Shown in pieces: positions 2,038-43,704 of a DNA stretch of 64,000 nt. Origin of the DNA: Cycloclasticus sp. 46_120_T64 (GTDB lineage: Bacteria > Pseudomonadota > Gammaproteobacteria > Methylococcales > Cycloclasticaceae); contig MAAM01000010.1 in assembly GCA_002162695.1 (NCBI GenBank), forward strand, positions 124,001 to 188,000, given 5' to 3'. Position numbers and translations under genes: made by a program. How positions within the stretch are numbered: position 1 is the stretch's first letter; every line of letters begins with the position of its first letter. The notes under the pieces are model-generated. The model had not been told where the DNA came from and did not search any database. It was given only the letters and a program-made list of their open reading frames with translations.

Positions 2038-2127
2038 GCTCAATCCTTTTATTGTTTTAGCCTTAGTTTATTACTGGCTTTGGCAAAAGCAAAGCATCAG
2101 GAGGGCTATTTGTGTAGATCCTTTTGT

Positions 2128-4006: not shown

Positions 4007-4145
4007 GCGGCGGGGCCTTGATCTATAAAGAAACGAACATATTACAGTGCTCGGGTAAGCAAATACAGCGCTATCCAAGTGTTAGTTAGAATTTTTATCT
4101 GGTGGCTCAGTCGGGGTGGGTTTTCTTGCTGAGAAGGTACGAGGC

Positions 4146-5090: not shown

Positions 5091-5122
5091 AGTGTGAAAA
5101 TCGAGTGAATTATATTGGGGTT

Positions 5123-5464
5123 TTACCAGCTAATGAGCAGCCATTGAGGGATGTTCATGCCTTCTTCGAGCGCGGAGCGTCGAGTCTCTAGGTCGCCGTC
5201 GCCATCGCTGTCGACTAAGTAATAAGCGGGGGCGTTGGCGGGGGAAATTTTTACCATATAAACGCGGCCATTAACGCTATATTCGGTAATGTTCTCCTTC
5301 GCTTTACGGGTGATGGTAATATCCGGTGCCATGTTTTCGCCGCTAACAATCTGTGCGGGCAATTCAGGTGGCTGCGGGATGATTGCTGGGCGAATCTCTT
5401 GTGCGGCAAGTTGCGACGAGGCGCAGAATAATAAGATTAAGGTGATCGGGAGTATGCAACGCAT
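5123..5464 (-). CDS. DUF2782 domain-containing secreted protein
   Basis: Small protein of 113 residues with a signal peptide (hydrophobic stretch 5-20, likely cleavage after AQ near residue 22). The mature part resembles DUF2782: a YMVKISPANAPAYYLVDSDGDGDLE core ends in a short aromatic tail. Function is unknown. The family is typically encoded between thrB and polA in pseudomonads, as here. It sits 32 bp upstream of thrB in the same direction. Confidence 0.82.
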   Translation of the reverse strand: MRCILPITLILLFCASSQLAAQEIRPAIIPQPPELPAQIVSGENMAPDITITRKAKENITEYSVNGRVYMVKISPANAPAYYLVDSDGDGDLETRRSALEEGMNIPQWLLISW

Positions 5465-5534
5465 ATATATGCCTTTGAGCTATCGGATAAGCTAATTATG
5501 CCATTATCTGCGGCGCTTTTGTAAAACTTGCGGT

Positions 5535-6212
5535 TTACAGCTCGAGTAAGACCTCCTCTTCTTTGGCTGACGGGGTAAACCCTCGTTGCTCATAAAAATT
5601 AAAAATAGTTTCCAACACCTCATCGGCGGTTTCGCAAATACTAAACAGTTTGAGGTCATCTTCGCTGATGGTGCCGGCGGCCAATAAACTACTAGAAAAC
5701 CAGTCAATGAGGCCCTTCCAAAACTCGCCATTGATGAGAATAATGGGGATTTTTCGTGATTTGCCTGTTTGCACTAAGGTTAATATTTCGGCTAGCTCAT
5801 CTAAGGTACCAAAGCCGCCTGGCAGTACCACATAGGCTGAGGCATATTTTACAAACATCACCTTGCGGGCAAAAAAGTGCCTGAAATCTAGGCTGATGTC
5901 TTGATAGGGGTTGCTGCTTTGCTCGTGGGGTAGGCGGATATTAAGCCCGATGCTCATTGATGAACCATTAAAGGCACCTTTATTGGCTGCTTCCATAATC
6001 CCTGGGCCGCCGCCGCTAATGACCGAAAAGCCGGCATTTGATAAGGCGAGGGCAATTTCCTCTGCGCGCTGATAATCTGGCTGGTCGGCTTGGATGCGCG
6101 CCGAGCCATACATGCTGATGGCGGGTTTTACGTGGGATAGCTGCTCAAAGCCATCAACAAACTCGGCAATAATCTGAAAAACCTTCCATGCTTCGCGTTT
6201 TTGTTTGCTCAT
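5535..6212 (-). CDS. LOG family protein (TIGR00730 Rossmann fold)
   Basis: 225 residues with the nucleotide-binding signatures of the LOG/lysine-decarboxylase-like family: GGGPGIMEAANKGA (about residues 70-83) and PGGFGTLDE (about residues 124-132). Characterised members are cytokinin riboside 5'-monophosphate phosphoribohydrolases or related nucleotide hydrolases; the physiological role in this bacterium is unknown. An in-frame ATG exists at 6242, but the ATG at 6212 has AAGGGGG seven bases upstream and begins MSKQKREAW, so it is preferred. The gene is transcribed divergently from polA, with only about 80 bp between the starts. Confidence 0.88.
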   Translation of the reverse strand: MSKQKREAWKVFQIIAEFVDGFEQLSHVKPAISMYGSARIQADQPDYQRAEEIALALSNAGFSVISGGGPGIMEAANKGAFNGSSMSIGLNIRLPHEQSSNPYQDISLDFRHFFARKVMFVKYASAYVVLPGGFGTLDELAEILTLVQTGKSRKIPIILINGEFWKGLIDWFSSSLLAAGTISEDDLKLFSICETADEVLETIFNFYEQRGFTPSAKEEEVLLEL

Positions 6213-6260
6213 CACGGCCCCCTTGGCTGTTTTGCATGACATGTCGTCTGATACAGACAG

Positions 6261-6266
6261 TATAAT
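6261..6266 (+). promoter_or_regulatory. putative -10 box of the polA promoter
   Basis: A perfect TATAAT lies at 6261-6266. Transcription would then begin near 6273, downstream of the alternative ATG at 6269, which supports the ATG at 6296 as the polA start. No good -35 hexamer is seen at the right distance. A 5-3-5 inverted repeat (GTCTG ATA CAGAC, 6246-6258) sits immediately upstream and could be an operator. Confidence 0.45.
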
Positions 6267-6295
6267 CGGTGGATGAAAAATTACTGGACGGTTTC

Positions 6296-28666: not shown

Positions 28667-30382
28667 TTAATCGTTTTGCCATATAAAGACGGCGGTGGCT
28701 TGTCTGCCGCAGTCCGTGTATTCAAGGGAGTCACAAATTGTCTTTACCAGTTCAAGGCCTCGTCCGCTATATTGTTGATTATCAATTAAAGGGCGGCTGA
28801 TGTTTTTTGGCTCAAAACCATCTCCGGTATCTTGTACGCGAATTGTCAGCTTGCCGCCATTGTTATACGGTGCGTGGGTGAAAATCAATTTTATACTGCC
28901 TTCGGATAATTGTTCAAGCCGTTGCTGCTTTAAGTCGAAAAACTGAGCAAAGCCATCGGCGGAGAACTTTAAGCTGGAATCCAAGTTAAGCAGGCCGTGT
29001 TCGAGTGAATTAACAAAAAGTTCGGTGACCACCAAGAAAATAGATTCGCGAAAAGGGGTCAAACCCTGTATTTCCATTAATGAATTCACCAAGGCGGGCA
29101 CTGGGTTGAGTCGCTTTAGGGTATTAAAATCCAGCGTCGAGGAAGTTTTCCAGCTCGATGGTTCGATGTGGACAGGCACCTTATGTAGCTCGTGAAGGCC
29201 CCATTTCTCTGCGCTGAAGTCGCAGCTGAGCCTGACCAAGGTAATGTCATCCTGTTGTGCTTGTTGGCCTCGGTGGGCATCGAGCGCATGCAGAATATTA
29301 TCGAAGCAGGACTCCCGGCCAAGACGTAGGCAGTCTTCTACGCCGATCATGTCAAAGGCTTGGCCCTCGTTGTTTTCGGTTTCAATGACCCCGTCGGTAA
29401 ACATGATTAACTGTTGGCTACTGCGTACGTGGTGGTGATGTTCAATCAGCTGCAGGTCGGGGCTGTCGATGATGCCTAAGGGTAAGTTATTAGACGGGAT
29501 GGTTTTAATATCACCGCTTTCTGTGCAAAATAATAAGTGTTCGGGGAGGCCGCAGGTGATAGTGCTTAAATTATGGTTCTCACGGTCTAGGCAGGCCAAT
29601 GTGGCTGCTAAAAACATATTAACGGGTAATAGTTTTTGTAGTTTGAAATTGATTTCTGCGGTTATTTCCCGAATACCAAAACCCTTCGCCGTCATCCCGT
29701 AAAATATTTCTGCGGCGGGTGCCGAAGCGAGCGAGGCGGTAATGCCGTGGCCGGTGAAATCGCCTAATAACACGTTGAGTTTATCGGCTGGAGTATAGGC
29801 GCACAGCAGCAGGTCACCGTTGAACTTCGACATCGGAGATAACGCCGAATGTAGGTTGGGTGATTGCATAAAACCGGTGCTAACGATGTTCTCGTAGACC
29901 GCTGCGGCGGCTTCATGCTCTTGAGTTTCTTGTTCTTGGAAGGCCTCGATTTCAGCTTTTTGCCGCATTTGTTCGTTATACAGCTGCTTTATTTTCAGCA
30001 GGGAACGGGTTTTTGCCGATAAGATATTGGCGTTAAAGGGTTTTTTGATGAAGTCAGAACCACCCACTTCGATACATTGGTCAAGGTATTTATCGCTATC
30101 GCCACCGGTGATGAAGATGATTGGAATAAAGCGTTCCGCTAGCGTTCTGCGAATAATGCGTGTCGCTTCAATGCCATCCATGACCGGCATTTCAATATCC
30201 ATGAAAATGACATCGACCTGCTCGGGATCAAATAAATTGATGGCTTCTTGCCCATCCTTGGCGGCGGTGACCTCATAACCCAGCTCGTCGAGCATATGGT
30301 TGAGTAATAGGCGCTGAGTCAGGCTATCATCAACGATTAATGCCTTAGGTGCAGAGTTGTCTGCTTGATTAATGATTGACAC
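28667..30382 (-). CDS. REC-PP2C(SpoIIE)-HATPase partner-switching regulator (HsbR-like)
   Basis: 571 residues with three domains: an N-terminal receiver (about 10-130; phospho-Asp in IFMDIEMPVMDG), a PP2C-type SpoIIE serine phosphatase (about 180-390; LLGDFTGHGITASLASAPAA and FTDGVIETEN), and a C-terminal RsbW-like HATPase/anti-sigma kinase (about 430-568; VVTELFVNSLEHGL, VQDTGDGF, GRGLELV). The same architecture occurs in Pseudomonas HsbR and Shewanella CrsR, which dephosphorylate and phosphorylate an STAS antagonist. The STAS gene next door (16 bp upstream) is the expected substrate. Confidence 0.92.
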   Translation of the reverse strand: MSIINQADNSAPKALIVDDSLTQRLLLNHMLDELGYEVTAAKDGQEAINLFDPEQVDVIFMDIEMPVMDGIEATRIIRRTLAERFIPIIFITGGDSDKYLDQCIEVGGSDFIKKPFNANILSAKTRSLLKIKQLYNEQMRQKAEIEAFQEQETQEHEAAAAVYENIVSTGFMQSPNLHSALSPMSKFNGDLLLCAYTPADKLNVLLGDFTGHGITASLASAPAAEIFYGMTAKGFGIREITAEINFKLQKLLPVNMFLAATLACLDRENHNLSTITCGLPEHLLFCTESGDIKTIPSNNLPLGIIDSPDLQLIEHHHHVRSSQQLIMFTDGVIETENNEGQAFDMIGVEDCLRLGRESCFDNILHALDAHRGQQAQQDDITLVRLSCDFSAEKWGLHELHKVPVHIEPSSWKTSSTLDFNTLKRLNPVPALVNSLMEIQGLTPFRESIFLVVTELFVNSLEHGLLNLDSSLKFSADGFAQFFDLKQQRLEQLSEGSIKLIFTHAPYNNGGKLTIRVQDTGDGFEPKNISRPLIDNQQYSGRGLELVKTICDSLEYTDCGRQATAVFIWQND

Positions 30383-30398: not shown

Positions 30399-30698
30399 CT
30401 AGTTCAAGGTGAATAATTGACCAAAATTGGCAATTTCTAAGATTTTTTTCACATCGGGTTTAGCATTGATTAAGGAAATACTGTCTTTATGGTCGTTCAT
30501 CTTGTTTTTAAGCAGTAATAACATGCCTAAGGCCGAGCTATCCACGTATTCGGTGGTCCGTAGGTCTACAAAGACGTGTACGGTTTGTTGATTGATGGCG
30601 TCGATGGCGGAACGAAATTCTTTATGTATACCGAAGTCAAAACGACCTGAAATACTGATAGTGAGTTTGTTGTCCGTAGTTTGTGATGAAATACTCAT
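30399..30698 (-). CDS. STAS-domain anti-sigma factor antagonist (HsbA-like)
   Basis: 99-residue STAS domain. The phosphorylation loop reads VDSSALGMLLLL (about residues 51-62), keeping the Ser in the second position of DSS that SpoIIAA-type antagonists have phosphorylated. It is therefore a plausible switch substrate of the adjacent PP2C/kinase. It is the first gene of the leftward operon and is separated from the divergent chemotaxis operon by 260 bp. Confidence 0.9.
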   Translation of the reverse strand: MSISSQTTDNKLTISISGRFDFGIHKEFRSAIDAINQQTVHVFVDLRTTEYVDSSALGMLLLLKNKMNDHKDSISLINAKPDVKKILEIANFGQLFTLN

Positions 30699-30958
30699 AA
30701 GTAACCTGCTTGAAATTAACGTTAATTTTAATCATTAGCTAAGCCCCTTTTCCGTTAGCGGCTTTTTTGTATTCAATGTTTGAAGGTTAGCAGATGGTTG
30801 TTTTTTTGTCGGAACTTTCCGCTAGCAAAAATTATTTTTGGCTGCTCTCTATATATTAAAAGTGTTTTTATTTTGATAAATAAACAATTGAAAAAAAACT
30901 TTAGTTGCTTTCTTTTTTCGCGGCTATACTTCAGGAAACAATAAATGGGGGGCTGTTT
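30699..30958. promoter_or_regulatory. divergent intergenic region between the two signalling operons
   Basis: 260 bp, AT-rich, containing the start signals of both operons. A good -10-like TATACT is present at 30925-30930 about 29 bases before the rightward start, without a convincing -35. I found no sigma-54 GG-N10-GC pair or sigma-28 consensus. GGGGGG lies six to twelve bases before the start at 30959. No gene is visible in the gap. Confidence 0.4.
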
Positions 30959-31564
30959 ATGTCAGAGGTCAGTAGTAATTACTTTGTTGCGGCTGCAAGC
31001 ATTGCAGCTAAACTCGATTATGCGACCAAGGTTGCTCAACGTTTATCATTAACCGCGAGTAACGCTCGGGCCCTAACCCTGAGAGCAGGGCAAAGCGCCG
31101 CCGGTTTCCGCCCGTTAACCGATGCCATTCACCGTTTATCCGACATCACGGTTAGCTCATCCAAAAAAATTAATGCCATTGCCGCGGTGCTCAGTCGTAT
31201 GGCGGTTGAGAAGTATCGTTCCGATAGCGCATTAAAATACTTTGACGCGGTTTATTTGCAAGCACAGGGCAGTCGGCACCTCGACAGCCTGAGTGACGTG
31301 TATGAGCGTACGAAGCTTAAGCAAAAAGAGTTAATGACTCAATACCAGCAAAAAATACAACAACTAACCCAGGAATTAGAAGCGGTTGAGGGCGAGCTAC
31401 GCTCGGCCGTGGTACTGAAAGTATTGTGTCAGATTGAAGCCTCGCAAGCAGGCGCAACCTACCAAGACGCACTGAATAACGTCGCCGAAAATGTGGAAAA
31501 TATTGCGGAGACGATCAAGGAACAGATTGTTTTTTCACGTCAACAAGTAGCCATATTACAGTAG
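30959..31564 (+). CDS. soluble protein with a cryptic chemoreceptor-tip pattern
   Basis: 201 residues, no membrane segment, mostly helical with a coiled-coil section (about 110-150). I do not recognise it as a named family. Residues 35-60 match the invariant spacing of the MCP signalling tip exactly: N-A-x5-R-A-G-x4-G-F-x4-D-x4-L (N35, A36, R42, A43, G44, G49, F50, D55, L60). The conserved tip Glu (middle of the x5) is Leu here. It may thus be a degenerate MCP hairpin that joins or modulates the receptor array. It heads the chemotaxis operon, nine bases before the ODP gene. The ATG at 30959 follows a G-rich ribosome site; a frame extension to 30905 lacks one. Confidence 0.7.
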   Translation: MSEVSSNYFVAAASIAAKLDYATKVAQRLSLTASNARALTLRAGQSAAGFRPLTDAIHRLSDITVSSSKKINAIAAVLSRMAVEKYRSDSALKYFDAVYLQAQGSRHLDSLSDVYERTKLKQKELMTQYQQKIQQLTQELEAVEGELRSAVVLKVLCQIEASQAGATYQDALNNVAENVENIAETIKEQIVFSRQQVAILQ

Positions 31565-31573
31565 GGTATTTAA

Positions 31574-32314
31574 ATGAAAGCAGAGAAGCTATACGAGAAT
31601 AATGACCACACATGGATTGTTTTTGGGCGGGATGAAGATAAGCCAGATTTAATTATTGATACCAATCAGTATATGGTGACGAGTAAGAAAAATTCTTTAT
31701 TGATGGACCCCGGAGGGGTTGAATTGTTCTCCGCTATGTTGTCGGCAGTCATAAAAGAAGTGCCTGCGCAGAAAATCACCCACTTATTTGCTTCGCATCA
31801 AGACCCCGATATTATTTCTTCATTGGGTCTGTGGGACTTGGCGTTAACGGATGCAACCTTGCACTCGCCTTGGCTGTGGGAAGGTTATATTCGTCACTTT
31901 GGTATGCAGCATATCGAATATGAGGGTATTCCTGACGAGGGGAGTCGGTTGACTTTAGACGAGGTGGTTCTGGAGTTTATTCCTGCGCATTACTTGCATT
32001 CATCGGGTAATTTTAATGTGTACGATCCGAAGGCTAAAATTTTGATGTCGGGGGATATTGGCGCAGCCATGGAGGAGCCCGATGCGCCGATGTTTGTAGA
32101 AGATTTTGATGCTCACATCGGTAAGATGAAAATGTTTCATCAGCGTTGGATGCCATCGAATAAAGCAAAAAATGACTGGGTTAGGCGGGTTAGGCAACTT
32201 GATATTGAGATGATGTGCCCGCAGCATGGACGTATTTTTAGAGGGGCTGATGTAAAACGATTTTTAGATTGGTTTGAAAACCTAGAGGTGGGTGTACTTG
32301 GCGGTCGACGTTAA
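31574..32314 (+). CDS. ODP-like di-iron MBL-fold oxygen/iron sensor
   Basis: 246 residues. It has the flavodiiron-type MBL core without the flavodoxin domain. Metal ligands are in exact family spacing: H75-x-D77-x-D79, 62 residues, H142, 18 residues, D161, 56 residues, H218. Asp77 stands where flavodiiron proteins have Glu. This matches ODP, the oxygen-binding di-iron protein that works with CheA in Treponema denticola chemotaxis. Here too it is encoded with cheA, cheY and receptors. It is expected to bind O2 at two irons and report on oxygen or iron state instead of reducing O2 rapidly. Confidence 0.85.
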   Translation: MKAEKLYENNDHTWIVFGRDEDKPDLIIDTNQYMVTSKKNSLLMDPGGVELFSAMLSAVIKEVPAQKITHLFASHQDPDIISSLGLWDLALTDATLHSPWLWEGYIRHFGMQHIEYEGIPDEGSRLTLDEVVLEFIPAHYLHSSGNFNVYDPKAKILMSGDIGAAMEEPDAPMFVEDFDAHIGKMKMFHQRWMPSNKAKNDWVRRVRQLDIEMMCPQHGRIFRGADVKRFLDWFENLEVGVLGGRR

Positions 32315-32455
32315 AAAACCGTGTTTGATAACGCGGTGATTATATTAAACCGCTGCTAGCCTTAAAGTTAACAAAGGCAATAAGGATTTGCTGAGAGAGC
32401 GTTTGTATTAGCGGCCAGGCTCTCTGCTGAACTAACCCAATGTTAGGTGTCATAT

Positions 32456-32731
32456 ATGAATATTAAACTGCAAAATGAATTGGATATCCGCCAAGTCGCG
32501 GAATTGAAACTACAGTTAAGTGAGGCATTAATGGCCGAGGGCAATATCAGTCTTGATGCCGCCGACGTCGATGCTGCCGATACCGCTGGTTTGCAATTAT
32601 TAGTGGCCTTTGTTCAACAAGGCCGGTTAAAAAATAAGTCTATTGAGTGGCGTAACGTAACAGACTGTTTTTTAGCAACAAGCAAACTAATGGGGCTGGA
32701 TGACAGCTTGGGTTTGAATGAGTCGGTATAA
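32456..32731 (+). CDS. STAS-domain protein of the chemotaxis operon
   Basis: 91 residues with the STAS fold pattern (ISLDAADVDAADTAGLQLLVAFVQQG, the strand-loop-helix around residues 32-57). The loop reads ADTAGLQ where antagonists have DSSGLG: the usual phospho-Ser position is Ala, preceded by Thr. A classical serine switch is therefore unlikely unless that Thr is used. The gene is set between the ODP and cheY genes. Start ATG 32456 is preferred over a GTG three codons upstream. Confidence 0.8.
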   Translation: MNIKLQNELDIRQVAELKLQLSEALMAEGNISLDAADVDAADTAGLQLLVAFVQQGRLKNKSIEWRNVTDCFLATSKLMGLDDSLGLNESV

Positions 32732-32785: not shown

Positions 32786-33148
32786 ATGGCTCGAATACTT
32801 GTCGTGGATGATTCTGCTTCAATGCGGCAAATGGTGGCGTTCACCTTGAAAGGAGCGGGACATGAGGTTGTTGAAAAATCCGATGGAGTCGAGGCGCTAG
32901 CGTGTGCAAAATCGGCAAGTTTCGACTTGGTTATCACCGATGTCAATATGCCTAATATGGACGGGATCACGCTAACAAAGGAATTGCGTGCCCTGCCCAA
33001 TTATCGATTTACGCCGATATTAACGCTCACCACAGAATCATCGGCGGAAAAAAAGATGGCTGGTAAACAAGCCGGCGCAACAGGCTGGTTGGTAAAGCCG
33101 TTTAATCCTGATCAACTACTCGCAACCGCGAAAAAAGTACTGGGGTAA
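32786..33148 (+). CDS. cheY: chemotaxis response regulator CheY
   Basis: 120-residue single receiver domain: acidic pair D8-D9, phospho-Asp D52 (ITDVNMPNMDG), Thr in LTLTTESS (about residue 82) and Lys in LVKPFNP (about residue 104). It lies four bases before cheA, whose kinase is its expected phosphate donor. It may act on the flagellar motor or, given the cytoplasmic receptor array, as output to another process. Confidence 0.94.
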   Translation: MARILVVDDSASMRQMVAFTLKGAGHEVVEKSDGVEALACAKSASFDLVITDVNMPNMDGITLTKELRALPNYRFTPILTLTTESSAEKKMAGKQAGATGWLVKPFNPDQLLATAKKVLG

Positions 33149-33152
33149 GTCA

Positions 33153-35294
33153 ATGTCTATTGATATGTCGCAATTTCACGAAGCCTTCTTTGAAGAAAGT
33201 TTTGAAGGTCTGGAAATTATGGAGTCTGAGCTGCTAACACTGGATGTTGGTGAGGGGGATGTCGAGATAATCAATACGATATTCAGGGCAGCGCATTCGA
33301 TTAAGGGAGGAGCGGGCACATTCGGTTTTATGAATGTTTCTGAATTTACCCATGTGATGGAAACATTACTGGATGAAATGCGCGACGGCTCACGGGAGGT
33401 CACTCAGTTCGCTGTCGACTCCTTATTAGAATCGGTCGATGTGCTCAGGAGCATGTTGGAAGCCGCGCGGGATAAGACCGAGGTGGACGAAGACATGGTG
33501 GCAGCCCGCTACGCGGTGCTGAATAACATCCTAAAGGAAAACGGTGGAGCCTCATCAGCAACAGATGATGCCCCAGCAGAGGCGACTCCCGCCCCGTTGG
33601 CGAACGAACAGACGGCTGAGGCATTGTGGACAGTCGATTTTATTCCACATGCTGATTTGTTGATGGCTGGTAATGATCCCGTGCGGATGTTTAGGGCTTT
33701 GAGCGAGTTGGGCGAGCTGCAAGTTAATGTTGACTTGGAAAAACTACCGCCTTTCGATGAGTTAGCGCCGGAAGACTTATGCCTGAGTTGGCAGTTGACC
33801 TTAAGCGGGGATGTTGCTCGTTCCGCTATCGAAGAAGTCTTTGAATGGGTCGAGGATGACTGTGATTTAATCATTACCTCCACAGGTGGTAATGCGCTGG
33901 CTGACTCGCCGCCAATAGTGGAGCCTGCGGCACACGTGGAAGCCGTTCCCGAAGCGGCTCCAGCTCCAGCCACTGCGGCACCGAGTGTAAACACGGCGGC
34001 TAGTGATAGCCCAGCGGCCAAAAAATCGGCGGCGAAACCGAAAAAAGCAACCGAGTCAGCATCGATCAGGGTGGGTATCGATAAAATTGATGAGATCATC
34101 AATTTGGTCGGTGAACTGGTTATTACCCAGTCTATGTTAGATCAGGCCGGTGACGACTTGGAAGCGAATGCGGATACCGTTGGTAATGATAGTGAATCGC
34201 AAAAAACCAATGCAGATATTTTATTGCGCTTAAGCAAAGGTTTAGCGCAACTGGAACGTAATACACGAGAGCTGCAAGATGGGGTGATGCGGATTCGAAT
34301 GTTGCCGATCAGTTTTGTCTTTAGTCGGATGCCAAGATTGGTGCATGATTTAACCGGTAAGCTGAATAAAAAAGTTGAGTTGGTGTTATCGGGTGAAGAA
34401 ACCGAGCTGGATAAAACGGTGATGGAAAATATCGGCGATCCGTTGGTTCATTTAGTGCGTAATGCTTTGGATCATGGCGTTGAAACCCCGGATATTAGGC
34501 GGGCCGCCGGCAAAGATGAAACAGGGGTGTTGAGCCTCAATGCATACCATCAAGGTGGCAATATCATCATCGAAATTAAAGATGATGGTGCGGGTATAAA
34601 TAAAAAAAAGGTACGGGATAAAGCGATTGAAAAAGGCATTATCTCGGCGACCGACAACCTGTCTGATGAGGAAGTTAATAACCTGATTTTTGCGCCGGGT
34701 TTCTCAACTGCCGAGGTGGTGAGCGACGTATCGGGCCGTGGTGTCGGCATGGACGTGGTGAAAACCAGTATTAATAAACTCGGTGGCCGAGTTGTGGTGC
34801 AGTCGGAAGAGGGTAAGGGCTCTGTTTTTACTATTCGTTTGCCACTCACTTTAGCCATTTTGGATGGCCAGCTGGTGACCGTTGGTGGTGAGTCCTACGT
34901 TATTCCATTGATCGCCATTATTGAATCCTTGCAGGTCGATCGAGCACAAATTAATGCGGTGGCCGGTAAAGCCGAAGTCTATAAGTTACGTGATCAATAT
35001 ATTCCTATCATGAGGGCGCGGGCGGTGTTTGGTTTAGACGATAGCACCGATGACTTACACGACTCGTTAATGGTGGTGGTTGAAGTTGATGGCTCGCCGA
35101 TAGGGATCATTGTTGATGAGCTACAAGGGCAGCAACAAGTGGTTATTAAAAGCTTAGAAACGAATTACCGGAAAGTAGAAACCATGTCGGGTGCGACCAT
35201 TTTGGGGGATGGTACGGTGGCACTCATTTGGGATGTTAATGGCATGGTACGTGTACATAACAAGAAGTTAAATAAAGGCCTGATTAAGGCTTAG
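33153..35294 (+). CDS. cheA: chemotaxis histidine kinase CheA
   Basis: 713 residues. An N-terminal Hpt domain with phospho-histidine H48 (AAHSIKGGAGTFGF) is followed by an Ala/Pro-rich linker (about 130-160) and a P2-like domain (about 160-250). A second Ala/Pro/Lys linker leads to the dimerisation helix pair (about 300-370, IDEIINLVGELVITQS). The ATPase domain has an N-box DPLVHLVRNALDHG, a G1 box KDDGAG and a GRGVGMDVV G2 box. A CheW-like P5 domain ends the protein (about 565-700, LAILDGQLVTVGGESYVIP). All catalytic motifs are intact. It sits in a tight operon with cheY and cheW. Confidence 0.97.
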   Translation: MSIDMSQFHEAFFEESFEGLEIMESELLTLDVGEGDVEIINTIFRAAHSIKGGAGTFGFMNVSEFTHVMETLLDEMRDGSREVTQFAVDSLLESVDVLRSMLEAARDKTEVDEDMVAARYAVLNNILKENGGASSATDDAPAEATPAPLANEQTAEALWTVDFIPHADLLMAGNDPVRMFRALSELGELQVNVDLEKLPPFDELAPEDLCLSWQLTLSGDVARSAIEEVFEWVEDDCDLIITSTGGNALADSPPIVEPAAHVEAVPEAAPAPATAAPSVNTAASDSPAAKKSAAKPKKATESASIRVGIDKIDEIINLVGELVITQSMLDQAGDDLEANADTVGNDSESQKTNADILLRLSKGLAQLERNTRELQDGVMRIRMLPISFVFSRMPRLVHDLTGKLNKKVELVLSGEETELDKTVMENIGDPLVHLVRNALDHGVETPDIRRAAGKDETGVLSLNAYHQGGNIIIEIKDDGAGINKKKVRDKAIEKGIISATDNLSDEEVNNLIFAPGFSTAEVVSDVSGRGVGMDVVKTSINKLGGRVVVQSEEGKGSVFTIRLPLTLAILDGQLVTVGGESYVIPLIAIIESLQVDRAQINAVAGKAEVYKLRDQYIPIMRARAVFGLDDSTDDLHDSLMVVVEVDGSPIGIIVDELQGQQQVVIKSLETNYRKVETMSGATILGDGTVALIWDVNGMVRVHNKKLNKGLIKA

Positions 35295-35334: not shown

Positions 35335-35868
35335 ATGAGTACCTCATTACAGGCTGTTAGTGACGATGTTGAAGAAAGTGACAATATTCATCAAAACCAA
35401 TATTTAACATTCTTGTTAGGGGATGAAGAATACGGCGTTGATATCTTAAGGGTACAGGAAATACGCGGTTGGGACTCGGTCACGACGATCCCGAATGCCC
35501 CAGCCTTCATCAAGGGGGTTATTAACCTACGTGGCACCATCGTATCTATTTTAGATTTACGTGAGCGTTTTGGCATCGAAAGTGTCGAATATAACGAGTT
35601 GACCGTGGTGGTGGTATTACGGGTCAAAGGTGAAGGTAAAGACCGGATCATGGGGGTCGTGGTGGATGCTGTTTCCGAGGTTTATCACATCGCCGAAAAT
35701 GACCTGAAAGACCCACCAGACCTAGGTTATGCGATCAATATGGATTATATGCGTGGGATGGCAACGGTGGATGACAAGATGGTTATTATTTTGGATATCG
35801 ATCAATTGATGAGCTTGAAAGAGATCGATGATGCAACCGAATCGGGCGAAAAGGCAGTAGAGGACTAG
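35335..35868 (+). CDS. cheW: chemotaxis adaptor CheW
   Basis: 177-residue coupling protein that links receptors to CheA. It has the usual two-barrel CheW pattern: YLTFLLGDEEYGVDILRVQEI (about residues 23-43), a PNAPAFIKGVINLRG segment (about residues 53-67) and the C-terminal strand VIILDIDQLM. It is preceded by cheA (40 bp) and followed by parA six bases later. Confidence 0.96.
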   Translation: MSTSLQAVSDDVEESDNIHQNQYLTFLLGDEEYGVDILRVQEIRGWDSVTTIPNAPAFIKGVINLRGTIVSILDLRERFGIESVEYNELTVVVVLRVKGEGKDRIMGVVVDAVSEVYHIAENDLKDPPDLGYAINMDYMRGMATVDDKMVIILDIDQLMSLKEIDDATESGEKAVED

Positions 35869-35874
35869 CGGATT

Positions 35875-36624
35875 ATGCGGACATTTGCGGTGTTAAACCA
35901 AAAAGGTGGTGTCGGTAAAACGACGACGGCGATCAACTTGGCGCATGCGATGGCGTTGCGTGGACACCTCGTGACTGCGATTGATATGGATCCGCAAAAC
36001 CACCTGACCGCGGGTTTGGGCCAAGAAACGCACCCACAGGTGGGCATTGATGAGGTATTGCTCGCCGAGTCAGATCTGCAAACGACTGTTATCGATGCTC
36101 GGCAGAATTTGCAGTTAGTGCCGGCCGGTACACGGCTATCGGAAGTGGAACAAGGTGCCAGAGGGGTAAAAGGCGGTTTGTTGTTGGCCAATGAAATTAA
36201 AAAACTGGAGCGGCAGGACTTCGTGTTCATTGACTGCCCACCCTCATCGGGCATTTTGTCGATGAACGCGATATTAGCCGCTAATGAAATTATTGTGCCG
36301 GTATCGAGTGACTACTTGGCCTTGCATGGAATGTCTCGTTTAATGGGAATCCTTAACCACGTAGAAAAGCGCTTGCACCATAAGATGACCGTCTGGGTGG
36401 CATTAACGCGCTTTCATGGGCGTCGACGTTTAGCCAATGAGGTGCGTGACAAGCTGGTTAACTACTTCCCCGGCAGTGTTTTAAAAACTCCGATACGGGA
36501 AGCCGTCGCATTAGCAGAAAGCCCGAGTTATGGGCAAACTATTTTTGAGTATCAAAAACGTGGCAATGGCTCGAATGATTATAGCGCCTTAGCCGACGAC
36601 CTATTACATGGGAGGACTCGATGA
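35875..36624 (+). CDS. ParA/MinD-type ATPase of the chemotaxis operon
   Basis: 249 residues. It has the deviant Walker A motif NQKGGVGKTTTAINLA (residues 8-23, with the signature first Lys), Walker A' DMDPQNHLTAGLG and Walker B FVFIDCPPSSG. This is the compact ParA form without an N-terminal DNA-binding domain. In Rhodobacter sphaeroides a ParA relative (PpfA) placed in a che operon positions and partitions the cytoplasmic receptor cluster, and in Vibrio a related ParC places polar arrays. With a soluble receptor encoded 180 bp downstream the PpfA-like role is the better guess. Its stop overlaps the start of a small gene by four bases (ATGA). Confidence 0.92.
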   Translation: MRTFAVLNQKGGVGKTTTAINLAHAMALRGHLVTAIDMDPQNHLTAGLGQETHPQVGIDEVLLAESDLQTTVIDARQNLQLVPAGTRLSEVEQGARGVKGGLLLANEIKKLERQDFVFIDCPPSSGILSMNAILAANEIIVPVSSDYLALHGMSRLMGILNHVEKRLHHKMTVWVALTRFHGRRRLANEVRDKLVNYFPGSVLKTPIREAVALAESPSYGQTIFEYQKRGNGSNDYSALADDLLHGRTR

Positions 36625-36803: not shown

Positions 36804-39761
36804 ATGACGGATAGAAAGAAAAGCGCAAAAGACAAGACGCTGGGGTTTGACCCCTTGGCTTGGATGGAAGAAGAGGAGTCGGCGCCGGAACCTGTGGTAG
36901 AAAAAAAGCCAGCGGCGAAAAAACCCGCGGCGAAGGCGAAAGCAAAACCAAAACCAAAGCCAAAAGCAAAGCCCGCTGCTAAAGAGGCGGAAGTTGCGCC
37001 CTATGAGTCCTCGTTAGGGCTGGAGGTTGAAGTATTAGAAAGCAGCTTTGCTTTATTGGCGCCGGTTGCAGAAGAAATGATCGGGCAGTTTTATACCACC
37101 CTATTTGAGCGCTACCCCGGTGTTATCCCGATGTTTGAGAATACCACCCAAGCGCAGCAGGTCACTAAACTGGTGGCGGCGATAAAACTCACCATCGAAA
37201 ATTTACGTAACCCCGATACATTGGTTGGCGTGTTGTTAGCGATGGGGGAGAGGCATCAAGGCTACGGTGCGGAAGAAGCGCACTATATAGCGGTACGAGA
37301 TACCTTGCTGGAGGTCATGCAGCAATACGCAGGAGATCAGTGGACAGAAGAAATTAATGACGCATGGACGGGCGCGTTGAATCTAATCGCAGAAACAATG
37401 TTAAGTGCTTATAAAGGGGACGAGGGAGACATCATGAGTGAAGAACAAATAGCTGAATTGAACTACCTGAAGGCGGCGATACAGGGCGCAGAGACTAACC
37501 TAATGATGTGCGACGCCGATTTGAATATCACCTACGCCAATAGCGCGGTGGTTGAAATGTTGCGTAACCGGCAAACGGAGTTACGCACTATTTGGCCGGG
37601 CCTCGATGCCGATGCCCTAGTGGGGCAATGTATCGATCAGTTCCATAAGAACCCCGCGCACCAGCGTGGCCTCTTGGCGGATAAAAACCGTTTACCCGCC
37701 GAAGCGGAGATTGTTGTCGCAGGGATTACCTTTAAGGTGAATGCCTCCTTCATCGAAGGCGATGATGGCGAGTACGCCGGCAATATGGTGGAGTGGCAGG
37801 ATTTAACCGAAGAAAAAGCGAAAGAGAAAGAAGTAGCGCGTTTGCAATCGGCGGTGGATAGCGCCCAAACCAACCTGATGATGTGTGACGCCGATTTGAA
37901 TATCACCTACGCCAATAGCGCGGTGGTTGAAATGATGCGTAATCGGCAGACTGAGCTACGCACGATTTGGCCGAGTCTCGATGCCGATGCCTTAGTGGGG
38001 CAATGTATTGATCAGTTCCATAAAAATCCCGCGCACCAGCGTGGCCTCTTGGCGGATAAAAACAGCCTGCCAGCCGAAGCGTTGATCGAAGTCGCTGGGA
38101 TCATCTTTAAGGTGAATGCCTCCTACATCGAAGGCCCCGATGGCGAGTACATGGGCAATATGGTGGAGTGGCAAGATTTAACCGAAGAAAAAGCGAAAGA
38201 GAGAGTGGTGGCGCGCTTGCAAGCCGCGGTGGATAGCGCCCAAACCAACCTGATGATGTGTGACGACGATTTGAATATCACCTACGCCAATAACTCGGTG
38301 GTTGAGATGATGCGTAACCGGCAAACGGAGTTACGCACGATTTGGCCGAGTCTCAACCCCGATGCTTTGGTGGGTGAGTGTATCGACCAGTTCCATAAGG
38401 ACCCATCACATCAGCGGGCTTTGCTCGGCGATAAAAATCGTTTACCCGCCGAAGCGGAGATTGTTGTCGCTGGGATCACCTTTAAGGTGAATGCCTCCTA
38501 CATCGAAGGCCCGGATGGCGAGTACATGGGTAATATGGTGGAGTGGCAAGACTTAACCGAAATAAAGGACGCCGAAAAACAAATTCAAAATATTATTCAG
38601 GCGGCCACTGAAGGGCGTTTAGACGATAGAATTGATCACGCAACGTATGATGGCGGGATGAAGGCCATTGCTTCGGGGGTCAATGACTTAGTCGAAACCT
38701 TTTCGTTACCTATTCGGGCTATTGGCAGCGTATTGGGGGATCTTTCCGAGGGTAACTTAGACATCCAAGCGAATGGTGAATATCTAGGTGAGATCAAAGA
38801 CTTAATGGATTCTGCCAATACCACTATTGATAACCTACGTGACTCGATCGGTAATATCAGCACGGCGTCGGGTAATATTGCGGTGGCGACCAGTGAGATT
38901 GCCGCCGGCAATGCCGACTTAAGTAATCGGACGGAGCAGCAAGCGGCGGAGCTAGAGGAAACCGCGGCCAGTGTTGAAGAATTGACCAGCACGGTACAGC
39001 AAACGGCATCGAATTCAAAACGGGCGAATGATTTGGCCGAAGGCGCTAGTTCGCTCGCGACGAAAGGCGGCGATGTGGTGAAAGACGCGGTGGTGGCGAT
39101 GAGTGAAATCAACTCCTCCAGCAAAAAAATCGCTGATATTATCGGGGTGATTGATGAGATCGCCTTCCAAACCAATCTATTGGCGCTTAATGCGGCGGTG
39201 GAAGCGGCGAGGGCGGGTGAACATGGACGTGGTTTTGCGGTGGTGGCCAGTGAGGTTAGGAACTTGGCTCAACGCAGTGCCGGTGCGGCGAAAGAAATTA
39301 AATTACTCATTAACGACAGTACCGATAAGGTGAACGAAGGTACCAAACTGGTTGATGAGTCGGGTGAGGTATTGGGGCAGATTGTGACCTCGGTGCAAGA
39401 GGTGAGTGCCTTAATTTCTGATATTGCAGCGGCTAGTTCAGAACAGGCGGCGGGTATTGAGCAGGTGAACGCCTCGGTGACTAATCTCGATAGTGTGACC
39501 CAGCAAAATGCGGCCCTGGTTGAGGAGTCATCAGCGGCGGCGATGTCATTACAAGACCAATCCGGTACCTTGGACAAGGCGACCTCATTCTTTACCTTAC
39601 CCGCCTCGATGGTGACGGCTAAACCGGTAGCGACGAATCGACCAGCGGCTGAACCCGCAGCGCCGAAACCGAAACCCGTGGCGGCGCCCCAAGCCAAACC
39701 AGCGGCGAAACCCAAACCGATGGCCAGTGGCGACAAGGATGACGAATGGGATGAGTTTTAA
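36804..39761 (+). CDS. cytoplasmic globin-PAS-PAS-PAS-HAMP chemoreceptor
   Basis: 985-residue methyl-accepting receptor with no transmembrane segment. Order: Lys/Ala/Pro-rich N-terminus (1-65), globin domain (about 66-205) with proximal His151 (GERHQGYG), and three tandem PAS domains repeating every 125 residues from about T231, T356 and T481. Each PAS has the Aer2-type FHK[ND]P[AS]HQR haem motif (His281/286, 406/411, 531/536) and the Iβ tryptophan (W331, W456, W581) that steadies O2 in Aer2. HAMP-like repeats follow (about 605-690), then the MCP signalling domain with its tip near residues 785-825 ([21 protein letters not shown]). An Ala/Pro/Lys linker ends in EWDEF, matching the xWxxF tether for CheR and CheB. 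It would sense gas through up to four haems. Confidence 0.94.
37494..38618 (+). repeat. three tandem 375-bp coding repeats (haem-PAS units)
   Basis: Corresponding codons (ACN AAC CTN ATG ATG TG) recur at 37494, 37869 and 38244, exactly 375 bp apart. Long stretches are identical or nearly so at the nucleotide level between copies, including synonymous positions, for example the blocks encoding NITYAN and VEWQDLTE. This points to recent duplication or ongoing gene conversion. Confidence 0.93.
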
Positions 39762-39814: not shown

Positions 39815-39858
39815 AAACCACTGAATTAGCAGGGCTGAGGCCTGTGCCGGTGTCAAAA

Positions 39859-40725
39859 ATGGAGGGGATGGTGGTTGCGAAAAGGAAAGAAGGTAAACAA
39901 AGGGAGTTCGAGTTCACCGATGAAATATTTCAGCAGATTCGTCAGTTGGTGAAATTACATACCGGGATAGTGCTCGCAGATGGCAAACAAGATATGGTCT
40001 ACGGGCGTTTGACGAGGCGTTTACGAGCGCTTGATTTGGCTGACTTCGGTAGTTATTTAGATATTATTCGACAGGAAGATGAAGAGGAAATTATTAATTT
40101 AGTTAATGCGATTACGACTAATTTAACCTCCTTTTTTAGGGAAGAACACCACTTTGATTATTTAAAGAGCACGGTGTTTCCGAGTTTGTTAGAAAAGAAT
40201 GCTCCGACGCGGAAAATACGCATATGGAGTGCCGGTTGTTCAACCGGTGAGGAGCCGTATAGTCTGGCCATTACGGTGCAAGAGTTTTTTTCTGAACACC
40301 CAGACTGGGATGTGAAAATAATTGCCACCGACTTAGACTCCAATGTACTCGCGAAGGGGGCAAAAGGGGTTTACGAGATAAACCGAGTCGAGGGGGTGAA
40401 TCCGGAGTATAAACGACGTTGGATGAAACGTGGTAAGGACGATAAGGCTGATTTAGTGAAAATGAGGGCCGAATTGCAAGGGCTGATTACCTTCAAACAA
40501 TTAAATTTATTGCATGGCTGGCCGATTAACGGGCCTATTGATATTATTTTTTGCCGTAATGTGGTTATTTATTTTGATAAAGAGACCCAGCGTGGTTTAT
40601 TTGATCGTTATGCCGATGTGTTAGCAGACGATGGCCATCTGTTTATCGGCCACTCGGAGAATATGTTTAATGTCTGTGACCGTTTCGATTCCTTGGGTCA
40701 GACGATGTATCAGCGAAGTAACTGA
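39859..40725 (+). CDS. cheR: chemotaxis protein methyltransferase CheR
   Basis: 288 residues. SAM-dependent methyltransferase that methylates receptor glutamates. It has an N-terminal helical domain (about 10-80; TNLTSFFREEHHFDYL) and a SAM-binding fold with motif I RIWSAGCSTGEEPYSLA (about residues 117-133), DIIFCRNVVIYFD (about residues 228-240) and the C-terminal LFIGHSE segment. The exact start is uncertain: GTG 39844, ATG 39859 and ATG 39868 are in frame, with a GGAGGGG stretch between the last two. The cheD gene follows after three bases. Confidence 0.95.
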   Translation: MEGMVVAKRKEGKQREFEFTDEIFQQIRQLVKLHTGIVLADGKQDMVYGRLTRRLRALDLADFGSYLDIIRQEDEEEIINLVNAITTNLTSFFREEHHFDYLKSTVFPSLLEKNAPTRKIRIWSAGCSTGEEPYSLAITVQEFFSEHPDWDVKIIATDLDSNVLAKGAKGVYEINRVEGVNPEYKRRWMKRGKDDKADLVKMRAELQGLITFKQLNLLHGWPINGPIDIIFCRNVVIYFDKETQRGLFDRYADVLADDGHLFIGHSENMFNVCDRFDSLGQTMYQRSN

Positions 40726-40728
40726 TCG

Positions 40729-41376
40729 ATGACGCATTCGAATATTAAACCAGACGATATGCCTAGTGCCTTGCCGGGCTTTGAAGATATTAACCGCTAT
40801 TGGGATACCAGTCATGGTTATTATTCGGCGAAAATCCTACCCGGGCAATACTATGTTAGTAATAATGATGAGTTGATAGCCACGGTGTTGGGCTCTTGTA
40901 TTTCAGTCTGCGTGACCGACAAGGTGGCCGGTATCGGCGGGATGAATCACTTTATGTTGCCTATTTATTCGCGAGAACAGGCGGACTCTTGGGGCAGTAC
41001 GGTGATCAGTGCGGAAACCCGTTATGGAAACTTTGCGATGGAGCATATGATAAATGATGTCATTAAACATGGTGGGGTGAAGAATCGCTTGGAATTGAAG
41101 GTGATAGGGGGGGGGCGGGTGATGGATCAGATGACCGATATAGGCCTAAGGAATATCTCGTTTGTGTACGACTACATAGCCAACGAACGCCTGCAGCTGG
41201 TGAAAGAAGACGTAGGTGACCGCTATCCACGGAAGGTCTTATTTCATGTAAAAACGGGTAAGGTGAAGGTGAGGAAGTTGAAAAAAGTGAATAATTCGAC
41301 ACTATTAGAAAGAGATAGCGAATACTTAAGTAAATTAAATACGCAAACGGTCGGCGGTTCAGTCGATTTGTTTTAG
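40729..41376 (+). CDS. cheD: chemoreceptor glutamine deamidase CheD
   Basis: 215 residues. Deamidates receptor glutamines and, in Bacillus, also binds CheC. The papain-like catalytic Cys lies in ATVLGSCISVCVTD (about residue 63) and the catalytic His in GGMNHFMLP (about residue 79). Phosphatase CheC and CheD are both encoded in this window, as in the Bacillus adaptation circuit. The protein ends in GGSVDLF, similar to the tail of the membrane MCP two genes on. The gene lies between cheR and cheB in the operon. Confidence 0.95.
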   Translation: MTHSNIKPDDMPSALPGFEDINRYWDTSHGYYSAKILPGQYYVSNNDELIATVLGSCISVCVTDKVAGIGGMNHFMLPIYSREQADSWGSTVISAETRYGNFAMEHMINDVIKHGGVKNRLELKVIGGGRVMDQMTDIGLRNISFVYDYIANERLQLVKEDVGDRYPRKVLFHVKTGKVKVRKLKKVNNSTLLERDSEYLSKLNTQTVGGSVDLF

Positions 41377-41391: not shown

Positions 41392-42435
41392 GTGACAAAC
41401 ATTAAAAAAATTAGATTGTTAATCGTTGATGATTCGGCCATTGTGCGTCAGGTACTCAGCGAAATTTTTAGTAAAACAGATGATATAGAGGTGATTGGTA
41501 CAGCGATAGATCCGTTAATTGCGCGTGATAAAATTAAACGGTTAAAACCTGATGTATTAACCTTGGATATAGAAATGCCAAGGATGGATGGGATTACTTT
41601 TTTGGCCAACTTAATGCGACTGCGCCCGGTGCCAGTGGTGATGGTTTCGACCTTGACTGAAAAAGGTGCGGAGGCAACCTTTAAGGCGCTAGAGCTTGGC
41701 GCTATCGATTTTGTTGCAAAACCCAAAGTGAATGTTAAAACCGAGCTGGCGAAATATGCCGAAGATATCTGCGCTAAGGTGCGGGCGGCAGCGGCTGCGC
41801 GCATTCGGACGGCGAGCCCGCTTAAGTCAGCAGAAACGGCGGTGACATTAGCGACCCCGCGAAAGAATCTCCGGCAAATCATAGCTATTGGTTCATCAAC
41901 GGGGGGGACCGAAGCGATTAAGGAGTTACTGGTCGGTTTACCGGTCGATTCACCACCGGTGGTTATTACCCAGCATATTCCAAAAACATTTAGTACGGCA
42001 TTTGCTCAACGTTTAAATGGGATGTGTGAACTTACCGTGCTGGAGGCAAACACGGGCATGCAGTTAAAATCAGGTCACGTCTACCTTGCACCGGGCGATC
42101 GGCACCTATTAGTGGTGAAAAAAGGCGCTATTTTTAGCTGTGTATTGAATGATGGGCCAGCGGTAAATCGGCATAAACCCTCGGTTGATGTGATGTTTCG
42201 TTCACTCATTGAATGCGCGCCAAAGGATGTACACGCGGTGATGCTGACGGGGATGGGCAGCGATGGGGCAGAGGGTATGCTGGACCTACTCAAGGCTGGG
42301 GCCACCACGACCGCACAGGATGAAGCTTCTAGCGTGGTTTGGGGGATGCCGGGCAGTGCGGTGAAACTATCGGCTGTGCAATCGGTTTTACCGTTGAAAA
42401 AAATAGCTGGGCACCTGATTGCTCAGTATGAATAG
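41392..42435 (+). CDS. cheB: chemotaxis-specific methylesterase CheB
   Basis: 347 residues. N-terminal receiver domain (about 6-125; phospho-Asp in LTLDIEMPRMDG, Lys in VAKPK) and a C-terminal methylesterase domain with the catalytic triad Ser (AIGSSTGGTEAI, about residue 166), His (VVITQHIPKTF, about residue 193) and Asp (LTGMGSDGAEG, about residue 288). The GTG start at 41392 follows AAGGGGG and fits the family N-terminus. CheB removes methyl groups added by CheR once phosphorylated by CheA. Confidence 0.96.
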   Translation: MTNIKKIRLLIVDDSAIVRQVLSEIFSKTDDIEVIGTAIDPLIARDKIKRLKPDVLTLDIEMPRMDGITFLANLMRLRPVPVVMVSTLTEKGAEATFKALELGAIDFVAKPKVNVKTELAKYAEDICAKVRAAAAARIRTASPLKSAETAVTLATPRKNLRQIIAIGSSTGGTEAIKELLVGLPVDSPPVVITQHIPKTFSTAFAQRLNGMCELTVLEANTGMQLKSGHVYLAPGDRHLLVVKKGAIFSCVLNDGPAVNRHKPSVDVMFRSLIECAPKDVHAVMLTGMGSDGAEGMLDLLKAGATTTAQDEASSVVWGMPGSAVKLSAVQSVLPLKKIAGHLIAQYE

Positions 42436-42483
42436 TAAAAACAGGTGGCTTATGCTACTCAACGAGTTAGCGGGGAGTACTTC

Positions 42484-43704
42484 ATGATGAAAGAGCGAGG
42501 GTTTGTTCAACAATTTCGTATTGCCATACTGATTAGCCTGATTGCTATTGTGGCAAGCTTTATGCCTCCAATCGCTACCGCTTATTGGTCGCCACTATTA
42601 TTGATGATCGTCAGCGCAAGCTGGATGTTCATTGCTTTCAAAAGCTCCCAGAGTTCGGCGGTTATGGGGGGGGCGAGCAGTGCCAGCGCAAACGATAGCG
42701 GGGGGGGGACGGTAGAGCTGGATAATGAGGTGTCGGCTTTGTTACAGGATGTTGCGAGGATTGTGGCCGATGAAATGTCTAGAGCACAAACTGAGGTGCA
42801 ACGTATTAGACAATTGACGGGCGACGCGGTGGTTGAGTTAGCGAGCAGTTTTAATGGGATGAATGAGCATGCGCAAATACAGGGGCGAGAAATAGCCGGG
42901 GTTCTTAGTACTTTCACGACCGAAGACGAAGGCAGTGTCGATTTTGCTAAATTTGTCATCGATGCGAGTAATACCCTCGATTATTTTGTGGATAATATGC
43001 TCACGATTAGTCATAAAAGTATGGAAATGGTGGGTAATGTTGATGATATTTCAACGAATATGGATGAGATATATTCCTTACTAAATAATGTGACTGGGAT
43101 TGCCGATCAGACCAATTTATTGGCGCTGAATGCGGCGATTGAAGCCGCGCGTGCGGGCGAACACGGACGAGGTTTTGCGGTGGTGGCTGACGAGGTGCGT
43201 AAGTTATCTACCGGGTCGGCGACGACCGGTGAGCAAATTAGGCAGGTTATTAAGAAATCTCGGGTTAATATTGATAGCGCGGTGGACACTATTGGCACGA
43301 TGGCGTCGAAGGATATGAATTCGACGATTAAGTCGAAAGACCAGATGCAGTTGATGATGCGGAAGATAGAGGTATTAAATGCCAATATGGCAACAAAAAT
43401 GGTCGTTGTACAGGATATGAGCAACAATATTAATAATAGCGTGGCAATGGCGGTACGTGCTTTGCAGTTTGAAGATATGGTCAGCCAGTTATCCGAGCAC
43501 GTGGAGACAACCTGCCAACAAGTGGCGCCGTTTATTACTCAGGCTGGGGTGAGTTATAACAATGATACGAGCGCTGGTAGCGCTGCTGAGCGGATTAAAG
43601 TTTTGCGTAGAAACTTACAGCAGATACGTAACGAAACCTGCGCGCCTCAGCACGAGGCGGTTGTGCAGAGCTCGATGTCGGAGGGCGAGATCGATTTATT
43701 CTAG
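42484..43704 (+). CDS. short membrane-anchored methyl-accepting protein
   Basis: 406 residues. Two closely spaced transmembrane helices (about 10-27 and 34-53) leave almost no periplasmic domain. The rest is cytoplasmic, with an MCP signalling tip near residues 205-250 ([31 protein letters not shown]). No sensor domain is visible; input may come from the membrane or from partner receptors. The C-terminus is EGEIDLF, not the CheR tether. Start ATG 42484 has GGGGAG six bases upstream; an upstream GTG is less likely. It is the last gene of the operon and is followed by a terminator. Confidence 0.92.

Follow-up and report, generated by a model that had tools for sequence, protein, structure and literature searches.

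A soluble Aer2-class chemoreceptor with a globin and three haem-PAS domains in Cycloclasticus belongs to a widespread, little-described family

What does a chemoreceptor sense when it carries a globin and three PAS domains of a haem-binding type, and how is it placed in the cell? The question arises from a 64,000-nucleotide stretch of Cycloclasticus sp. 46_120_T64 (contig MAAM01000010.1, positions 124,001 to 188,000; hereafter the window), in which an open reading frame (ORF) of 985 residues joins these domains to a HAMP region and a methyl-accepting chemotaxis protein (MCP) signalling domain. The encoded receptor belongs to a widespread, little-described family. We think it probable that it is a soluble Aer2-class receptor of an ancestral-type F7 (Che2/Aer2) array, sensing O2 through up to four haems and positioned by ParA.

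The ORF is intact at the coordinates in Table 1 and is the only full-length match in its own genome (assembly, 2.21 Mb; listed completeness, 99.97%). Pfam places Globin (PF00042) at residues 95-199 (7e-12), PAS_8 in three stretches, HAMP_2 at 616-679 (1.3e-9), and MCPsignal at 742-899 (7.9e-56). The NCBIfam model of Vibrio Aer2, NF041847, aligns its positions 29-804 with residues 211-985 almost without change of length (870.1 bits, E 1.6e-261), a score that misses the equivalog threshold of 1200 bits; relative to Vibrio Aer2, the receptor has about 210 extra N-terminal residues, made up of a parA-linked motif, a linker, and the globin. A first-pass annotation of this DNA had described a globin with proximal His151, three Aer2-type haem-PAS domains, an MCP domain, and a terminal EWDEF, and on these points the residue numbers (PAS His 281, 406, and 531; Trp 331, 456, and 581), Pfam, and solved structures agree with it. 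Its view of a soluble protein also holds, since no 19-residue window resembles a membrane helix (top Kyte-Doolittle mean, 1.35). Of its HAMP-like repeats, a HAMP region is present, but just one HAMP exceeds the Pfam cut-off. The comparison with Aer2 that it had proposed came out in its favour not only by profile but also by structure: a 625-residue monomer model, built from an alignment of the receptor with 18 of 20 three-PAS relatives, matches the Aer2 haem-PAS structures 3VOL, 4HI4, and 6CEQ. Because the predicted template-modelling score is 0.42 and the HAMP region is poor, we do not argue domain packing from this model, and Foldseek and VIA-align served for comparison of folds only. The PAS-HAMP-MCP order without a transmembrane segment, the FHKxPxHQR histidine and Iβ tryptophan of the haem-PAS domains, and the fit of EWDEF to the tether pattern x-[HFYW]-x(2)-[HFYW] given in PMC7184735 all agree with an Aer2-like F7 receptor.

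The three PAS domains form a tandem array with a period of 375 nucleotides, far beyond chance. Among solved haem-PAS domains, PAS1 matches those of Pseudomonas aeruginosa Aer2 (3VOL, 2.5e-22; 4HI4) and Vibrio Aer2 (6CEQ, 6.7e-22), with FHKNPAHQR aligned on FHKNPAHQR; the Iβ tryptophan falls on Trp in 3VOL and 4HI4 and on Leu in 6CEQ. Across relatives, the haem histidine and the Iβ tryptophan are kept in all 126 PAS domains found by profile, a count that covers only PAS resembling haem-PAS. The receptor copies are mutually 80-86% identical in protein sequence. Their fourfold-degenerate sites agree with one another at 35/42, 27/38, and 28/36 positions, compared with just 4-10 of 27-34 for the sister genome G011 and 9-17 of 27-34 for G008. 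This higher silent-site agreement within the receptor indicates that the copies have been homogenised in their own lineage. In G008, a globin is followed by five PAS domains, read across record ends, of which PAS2-4 are 98-100% identical; the repeat number there may be affected by assembly. Homogenised copies argue for gain or redundancy over three tuned affinities. The review PMC13401364 reports that all three PAS domains of Vibrio vulnificus Aer2 bind haem with similar O2 affinities, which fits redundancy in the receptor as well. Three affinities from three copies, a candidate that we tried, is thus unsupported, and the several gas affinities expected by the first-pass annotation shrink to a possible difference between the globin and the PAS domains.

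Which kind of globin is this? Its pocket holds Tyr97, Phe111, Gln119, His151, and Tyr161, at helix positions that we take to be B10, CD1, E7, F8, and G5, respectively. By sequence and fold, the closest solved proteins are Hell's gate globin I (3s1i), Vitreoscilla haemoglobin, and flavohaemoglobins; the first two resemble the receptor globin, yet they are not joined to a receptor. The globin model (predicted local distance difference test score, 94.6) superposes on oxygen-bound Hell's gate globin I with a Z score of 21.1 and a root-mean-square deviation of 1.6 over 131 aligned residues. Tyr B10, Phe CD1, Gln E7, and His F8 are invariant in 49 aligned globins, namely, that of the receptor and 48 of 82 listed stretches. 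In a wider set of 129, His F8 is found in 88/91 Aer2, 6/6 CheA, 9/9 CheW, 3/3 STAS, 14/14 other, and 6/6 outgroup globins; the Aer2 exceptions are two Tyr from one genus and one gap, the latter in a false hit (L104) that was set aside because its domain listing has no globin and it is a weak, long-branch match in the tree and the locus scan. PF00042 and these five pocket residues place the domain among the flavohaemoglobins and single-domain globins. The protoglobin family PF11563 gives no Pfam match in the receptor up to E 1; in some relatives it also exceeds its cut-off, with PF00042 higher in every relative scanned. A HemAT-type receptor is ruled out on these grounds. HemAT, with which the first-pass annotation had compared the protein, shares an N-terminal globin on an MCP, but that globin is a protoglobin (PF11563, according to PMC6194562), and HemAT lacks PAS domains. 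Tandem globins related to the receptor globin also occur in cyanobacterial double-globin proteins of 339-367 residues (L151, L152, L155, L161, and L162).

The architecture is not unique to this genome; relatives in the genus, in a class sample, and in a contig scan rule this out. Across the taxonomic order, matches listed as running from the globin through PAS1 occur in 3 of 311 genomes, all of the window's genus. Within that genus, the globin-PAS1 query finds nothing at E 1e-12 in 15 of 18 genomes, seven of which are at least 90% complete; such patchy presence suggests loss of the cluster or lateral gain. A plasmid origin was considered, and no near match was present among 72,556 plasmid records. 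The class sample contains at least 40 genomes, of 368 besides the window's own, with globin-through-PAS1 matches at E 1e-20 or better; G429 has internal stops, and G312 was excluded (match 9-271, in an ORF without the haem motif). A set of 43 globin queries yielded no usable conserved stretch for scanning genome contigs. The scan was run with 12 closer globins, which biases it toward near relatives, and found 66 loci, including Thioalkalivibrio sulfidiphilus, Chromatocurvus, Kineobactrum, metagenome-assembled genomes (MAGs) of Nitrospira, and one Myxococcales MAG. The nearest titled relative is the Cycloclasticus symbiont of Bathymodiolus heckerae (globin 77% identical). An Opitutaceae MAG (L109), which we suspect is misbinned, has a receptor that falls among those of Cycloclasticus in the globin tree, a quick tree with SH-aLRT supports and without bootstrap. 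The genome survey proposed by the first-pass annotation thus finds the architecture to be common.

In all, 113 ORFs reduced to 99 distinct ones, two entries being merged when they share an exact stretch of 80 or 120 residues; close relatives are therefore still counted separately, and the same holds for the clusters and parA loci counted below. Globin, PAS, and MCP occur together in 76; the other 23, in which the three were not shown together, were set aside. These 76 span one to four globins and one to five haem-PAS domains: 43 have three PAS, 24 have two, five have one, one has five, and three have two, three, or four globins. Start-to-start distances between PAS domains are 125 or 126 residues in 116 of 121 intervals. 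From the last PAS to the MCP domain the distance is exactly 224 residues in 56 of the 76, and 224 + 125 in five more. Unlike this fixed spacing, the linker from globin to PAS1 is variable (7-28 residues in 70/76). Fixed PAS-PAS and PAS-MCP distances with a variable globin linker suggest an in-line PAS-HAMP-MCP stalk from which the globin hangs loosely. The four-globin receptor, L123, and L118, another contig of the same MAG, share no end-to-start overlap of at least 15 bases; the last residues of L118 recur inside L123, so the break falls within a repeat and the total number of globins cannot be given.

How much of this was known? Vibrio Aer2 resembles the receptor in its PAS domains (three in V. 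vulnificus, two in V. cholerae), HAMP, MCP, and haem-PAS motif. The first-pass annotation took one or two haem PAS as the limit of known receptors; the review PMC13401364 gives three for the Aer2 proteins of V. vulnificus and L. interrogans, so a three-haem-PAS Aer2 was already on record. P. aeruginosa Aer2 (3VOL and 4HI4) shares the haem-PAS, HAMP, MCP, C-terminal CheR tether, and F7/Che2 cluster but differs, in the account of that review, by having one PAS, three N-terminal HAMPs, and no globin. Nor is the union of globin and PAS new, as had been supposed: in 2018, PMC6194562 proposed Cc_4972 of Corallococcus, a soluble protein that combines globin, PAS, and MCP, as an aerotaxis receptor, and counted in silico seven PAS+globin+MCP proteins in 8,075 complete genomes. 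The globin of Cc_4972 is of another type (Bac_globin, PF01152), and the passages of that paper on it describe neither a three-haem-PAS array nor a ParA motif. In open-licence literature we found no earlier report of the PF00042 form or of globin-CheA or globin-CheW proteins, which is weak evidence of absence given that sources were available in part.

The gene order around the receptor is STAS, CheY, CheA, CheW, ParA, receptor, CheR, CheD, CheB, and second MCP. Apart from ParA, this is the order of stage-1 F7 clusters in section 10 of PMC7184735, and the receptor lies at the expected place; the F7 cluster described there has two cheW-like genes, whereas the window has one cheW and parA. The same section states the function of stage 1 and 2 F7 arrays as unclear. 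Upstream lies an ODP-family gene. An ODP of Treponema is described as an O2 sensor for chemotaxis in PMC7666581, and by its family the window's protein is a candidate second O2 sensor in the receptor's cluster, possibly di-iron. In 116 loci, not all of which extend so far upstream, relatives of ODP occur only in loci of the window's genus; likewise, relatives of a 219-residue protein adjoin ODP in this genus only.

The N terminus of the receptor carries LGFDPLAWM, an exact motif that occurs once in the window; a loose DNA pattern of it has three matches in the genome, one being the receptor gene. Of 40 clusters with parA, 36 carry the strict form of the motif (GxDPL[AS]W[MLI]), which is absent from all 36 clusters that lack parA (Fisher's exact test, 1.5e-17). 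Where CheW and CheR are both in view, the figures are 28/31 and 0/27 (1.6e-13). Inspection showed variants of the motif in the four remaining clusters; when it is relaxed to [DN]P[LF]xW close to the N terminus, the figures become 40/40 and 0/36, respectively. Of the 1,829 ORFs of at least 150 residues in the loci of these clusters, 54 have the relaxed motif within their first 100 residues, carriers included. It starts 17-317 nucleotides past the parA stop in all 44 distinct parA loci. Starting from parA instead, ten loci found independently of globins gave seven with the motif, two with GxDPLAALF, and one with none, and here the motif was also borne by small non-receptor proteins. Among the 36 motif-bearing clusters, 28 have it on Aer2 and eight on another protein, mostly STAS-type. 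Ahead of the strict motif, 24 of 32 proteins have a net basic stretch, so a basic N-terminal peptide is encoded next to parA, as for ATPase-activating partners. According to PMC7993993, such partners act on ParA/MinD proteins through N-terminal extensions that are short and basic, as PomX does on PomZ, and TlpT is suggested to be one. TlpT, a cytoplasmic receptor of Rhodobacter sphaeroides encoded beside the ParA homologue PpfA, is contacted by PpfA at its N terminus (PMC3964821). Our likening of the receptor to TlpT and PomX concerns position and basic N terminus; GxDPLAW was not compared with their sequences. From the linkage to parA, the basic N terminus, and these precedents, we propose residues 1-21 as a candidate ParA-partner peptide, a proposal built on a correlation uncorrected for descent.

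The globin is not confined to receptors. A scan of ORFs in 116 loci found it in the CheA of six MAGs (L059, identical to L120; L118; L129; L133; L134; and L135), in the CheW of six genomes (L088, identical to L148; L089; L141; L143; L165; and L168), and in three DPLAW-bearing proteins of 308-317 residues (L058; L099, identical to L125; and L167). Pfam confirms globin and kinase domains in four CheA (L118, L120, L133, and L134), globin and CheW in four proteins (L143, L148, L165, and L168), and globin and STAS in two, L125 above the STAS cut-off and L167 below it (24.1 versus 29.2 bits). In the four CheA checked, the globin sits between the Hpt and dimerisation domains, nearer Hpt in L134; in L088 (L148) and L089 it interrupts the CheW domain. 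For L133, the quick tree joins the CheA globin as sister to the Aer2 globin from its own cluster (support 99), which indicates that here the module was copied within a cluster. The window's own CheA and CheW lack a globin. All CheA cases are MAGs and no isolate with globin-CheA or globin-CheW was seen, so misassembly is a residual possibility. We regard as an even call the broader view that one globin lineage was added to Aer2, often repeatedly, and to CheA, CheW, and STAS-type proteins, so that gas would be sensed at receptor, kinase, and coupling protein, with array inheritance by ParA through GxDPLAW.

Table 1. Features of the window and of related loci (coordinates are those of each stretch)
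Locus	Feature	Coordinates	Strand	Basis or remark
Window	Globin-PAS3-HAMP-MCP receptor, Aer2 type (P0001), 985 residues	36804..39761	+	ORF and domain searches
Window	Basic N-terminal stretch and LGFDPLAWM, residues 1-21, candidate ParA-partner peptide	36804..36866	+	
Window	Linker rich in Lys/Ala/Pro, residues 27-66	36882..37001	+	Composition
Window	Globin domain, residues 67-210	37002..37433	+	Pfam, sequence and structure comparison
Window	Proximal His151 codon	37254..37256	+	
Window	Haem-PAS 1 (His281, Trp331), residues 217-345	37452..37838	+	
Window	Haem-PAS 2 (His406, Trp456), residues 342-470	37827..38213	+	
Window	Haem-PAS 3 (His531, Trp581), residues 467-595	38202..38588	+	
Window	HAMP region, residues 616-679	38649..38840	+	Pfam HAMP_2
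Window	MCP signalling domain	39027..39500	+	Pfam
Window	C-terminal pentapeptide EWDEF, candidate CheR tether	39744..39758	+	Sequence; pattern from PMC7184735
Window	Receiver-SpoIIE phosphatase-HATPase protein	28667..30382	-	
Window	Second STAS protein	30399..30698	-	
Window	219-residue protein	30905-31564		No Pfam or NCBIfam match
Window	ODP-family protein, candidate di-iron O2 sensor	31574..32314	+	PF19583, 3.4e-74
Window	STAS protein, anti-sigma-factor-antagonist type	32447..32731	+	
Window	CheY-like receiver	32786..33148	+	
Window	CheA	33153..35294	+	Without globin
Window	CheW	35335..35868	+	
Window	ParA/MinD-family ATPase	35875..36624	+	Directly upstream of receptor
Window	CheR	39844..40725	+	
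Window	CheD	40729..41376	+	
Window	CheB	41392..42435	+	
Window	Second MCP	42445..43704	+	McpA position of F7 clusters (order from PMC7184735)
L133	Globin-CheA kinase	2062-4494		PF00042 inserted
L134	Globin-CheA kinase	1139-3817		PF00042 inserted
L118	Globin-CheA kinase	1993-4617		PF00042 inserted
L120	Globin-CheA kinase	2040-4553		PF00042 inserted
L148	Globin-CheW	4957-5898		Globin within CheW
L143	Globin-CheW	5422-7248		Three globins
L168	Globin-CheW	5782-6999		Globin before CheW
L165	Globin-CheW	5332-6417		Globin after CheW
L125	DPLAW-start protein with globin and STAS	4939-5889		Downstream of parA
L167	DPLAW-start protein with globin and STAS (weak)	5848-6771		Downstream of parA
L123	Receptor with at least four globins and four haem-PAS	1-4599		Starts at contig edge within a further globin
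L118	DPLAW-bearing ORF, three globins and start of a fourth	5920-7442		At contig end; same MAG as L123

How might such a receptor work? With up to four haems, it would report O2 and possibly also CO or NO. Each PAS domain would bind a b-haem through His281, His406, or His531 and hold the gas in a pocket with the Iβ tryptophan; gas binding would shift the stacked PAS-PAS-PAS-HAMP stalk and change CheA activity, with CheR (tethered by EWDEF), CheB, and CheD adapting the receptor. Equipped with Tyr B10, Gln E7, and His F8, the globin would bind O2 and act as an accessory sensor on a loose tether, at the receptor end most distant from CheA. Residues 1-21 may dock on ParA and stimulate its ATPase, so that ParA would position or partition arrays on the nucleoid like PomX-PomZ, as suggested for TlpT. 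Several points tell against this scheme. We infer both haem binding and ParA contact from sequence. The haem-PAS 6CEQ has Leu in place of the Iβ tryptophan, which may therefore be dispensable for haem; His F8 is replaced by Tyr in two related genomes; and other PAS-like stretches, seen by eye, lie between the counted PAS in several relatives. The three V. vulnificus PAS domains play different signalling roles, according to the review PMC13401364, so not every haem need signal. The tether pattern is absent in 10 of 76 relatives, five of these from a contig end. As for the motif, its relaxed form was chosen after the four misses had been seen, Fisher's test ignores the shared ancestry of the clusters, and some loci end near the receptor, where a parA past the edge could be missed.

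The haems admit other roles. The globin could be a ligand buffer or an NO/O2 scavenger on the array that lowers local gas or protects the PAS haems while PAS alone signals. Its pocket (Tyr B10, Gln E7, His F8, and Tyr G5) is the same as that of the aligned flavohaemoglobin-type outgroup, its tether is variable, and a single mechanical coupling is hard to imagine for globins that also sit in CheA, CheW, and STAS-type proteins. Yet the receptor globin has no reductase domain, 74 of 91 receptor globins have Tyr in the column aligned with a flavohaemoglobin Glu, presumably H23, and the placing of a globin inside CheA close to the kinase core suggests coupling; we judge a scavenger unlikely, though worth taking seriously. 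That one or more of the globin and PAS domains lack haem, or hold a haem that exchanges no gas in the cell, with the PAS array mainly a spacer, strikes us as very doubtful. The number of PAS varies widely among relatives and haem is deduced rather than measured, but His and Trp persist in every profile-found PAS, the globin pocket is near invariant, and the nearest solved relatives are described as haem proteins.

For the N terminus, direct binding to the nucleoid instead of ParA docking seems rather improbable. The linker rich in Lys, Ala, and Pro would suit it, and the basic N-terminal tail of FrzCD binds DNA (PMC5716589); what is conserved, however, is a short motif, GxDPLAWM, which goes with the position of parA and which small non-receptor proteins also carry in the parA-first test. 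The motif and parA could also be linked without direct interaction if parA and the gene downstream of it descended together in one operon, given that our tests were uncorrected for phylogeny. Against it, the carrier differs between clusters, and the motif directly follows parA and is absent where parA is absent; we consider this quite improbable. ParA docking remains the reading that we prefer.

Overall, receptors with several haems, ODP in the genus, and globin-CheA and globin-CheW in relatives point to gas as a main input of stage 1 and 2 F7 arrays. The globin-CheA and globin-CheW proteins are natural constructs that could separate receptor-level from kinase-level control. The parA-linked motif offers a direct and inexpensive way to test the positioning and inheritance of soluble arrays; if the proposal is true, its presence on Aer2 or STAS-type proteins would define a portable ParA-docking tag.

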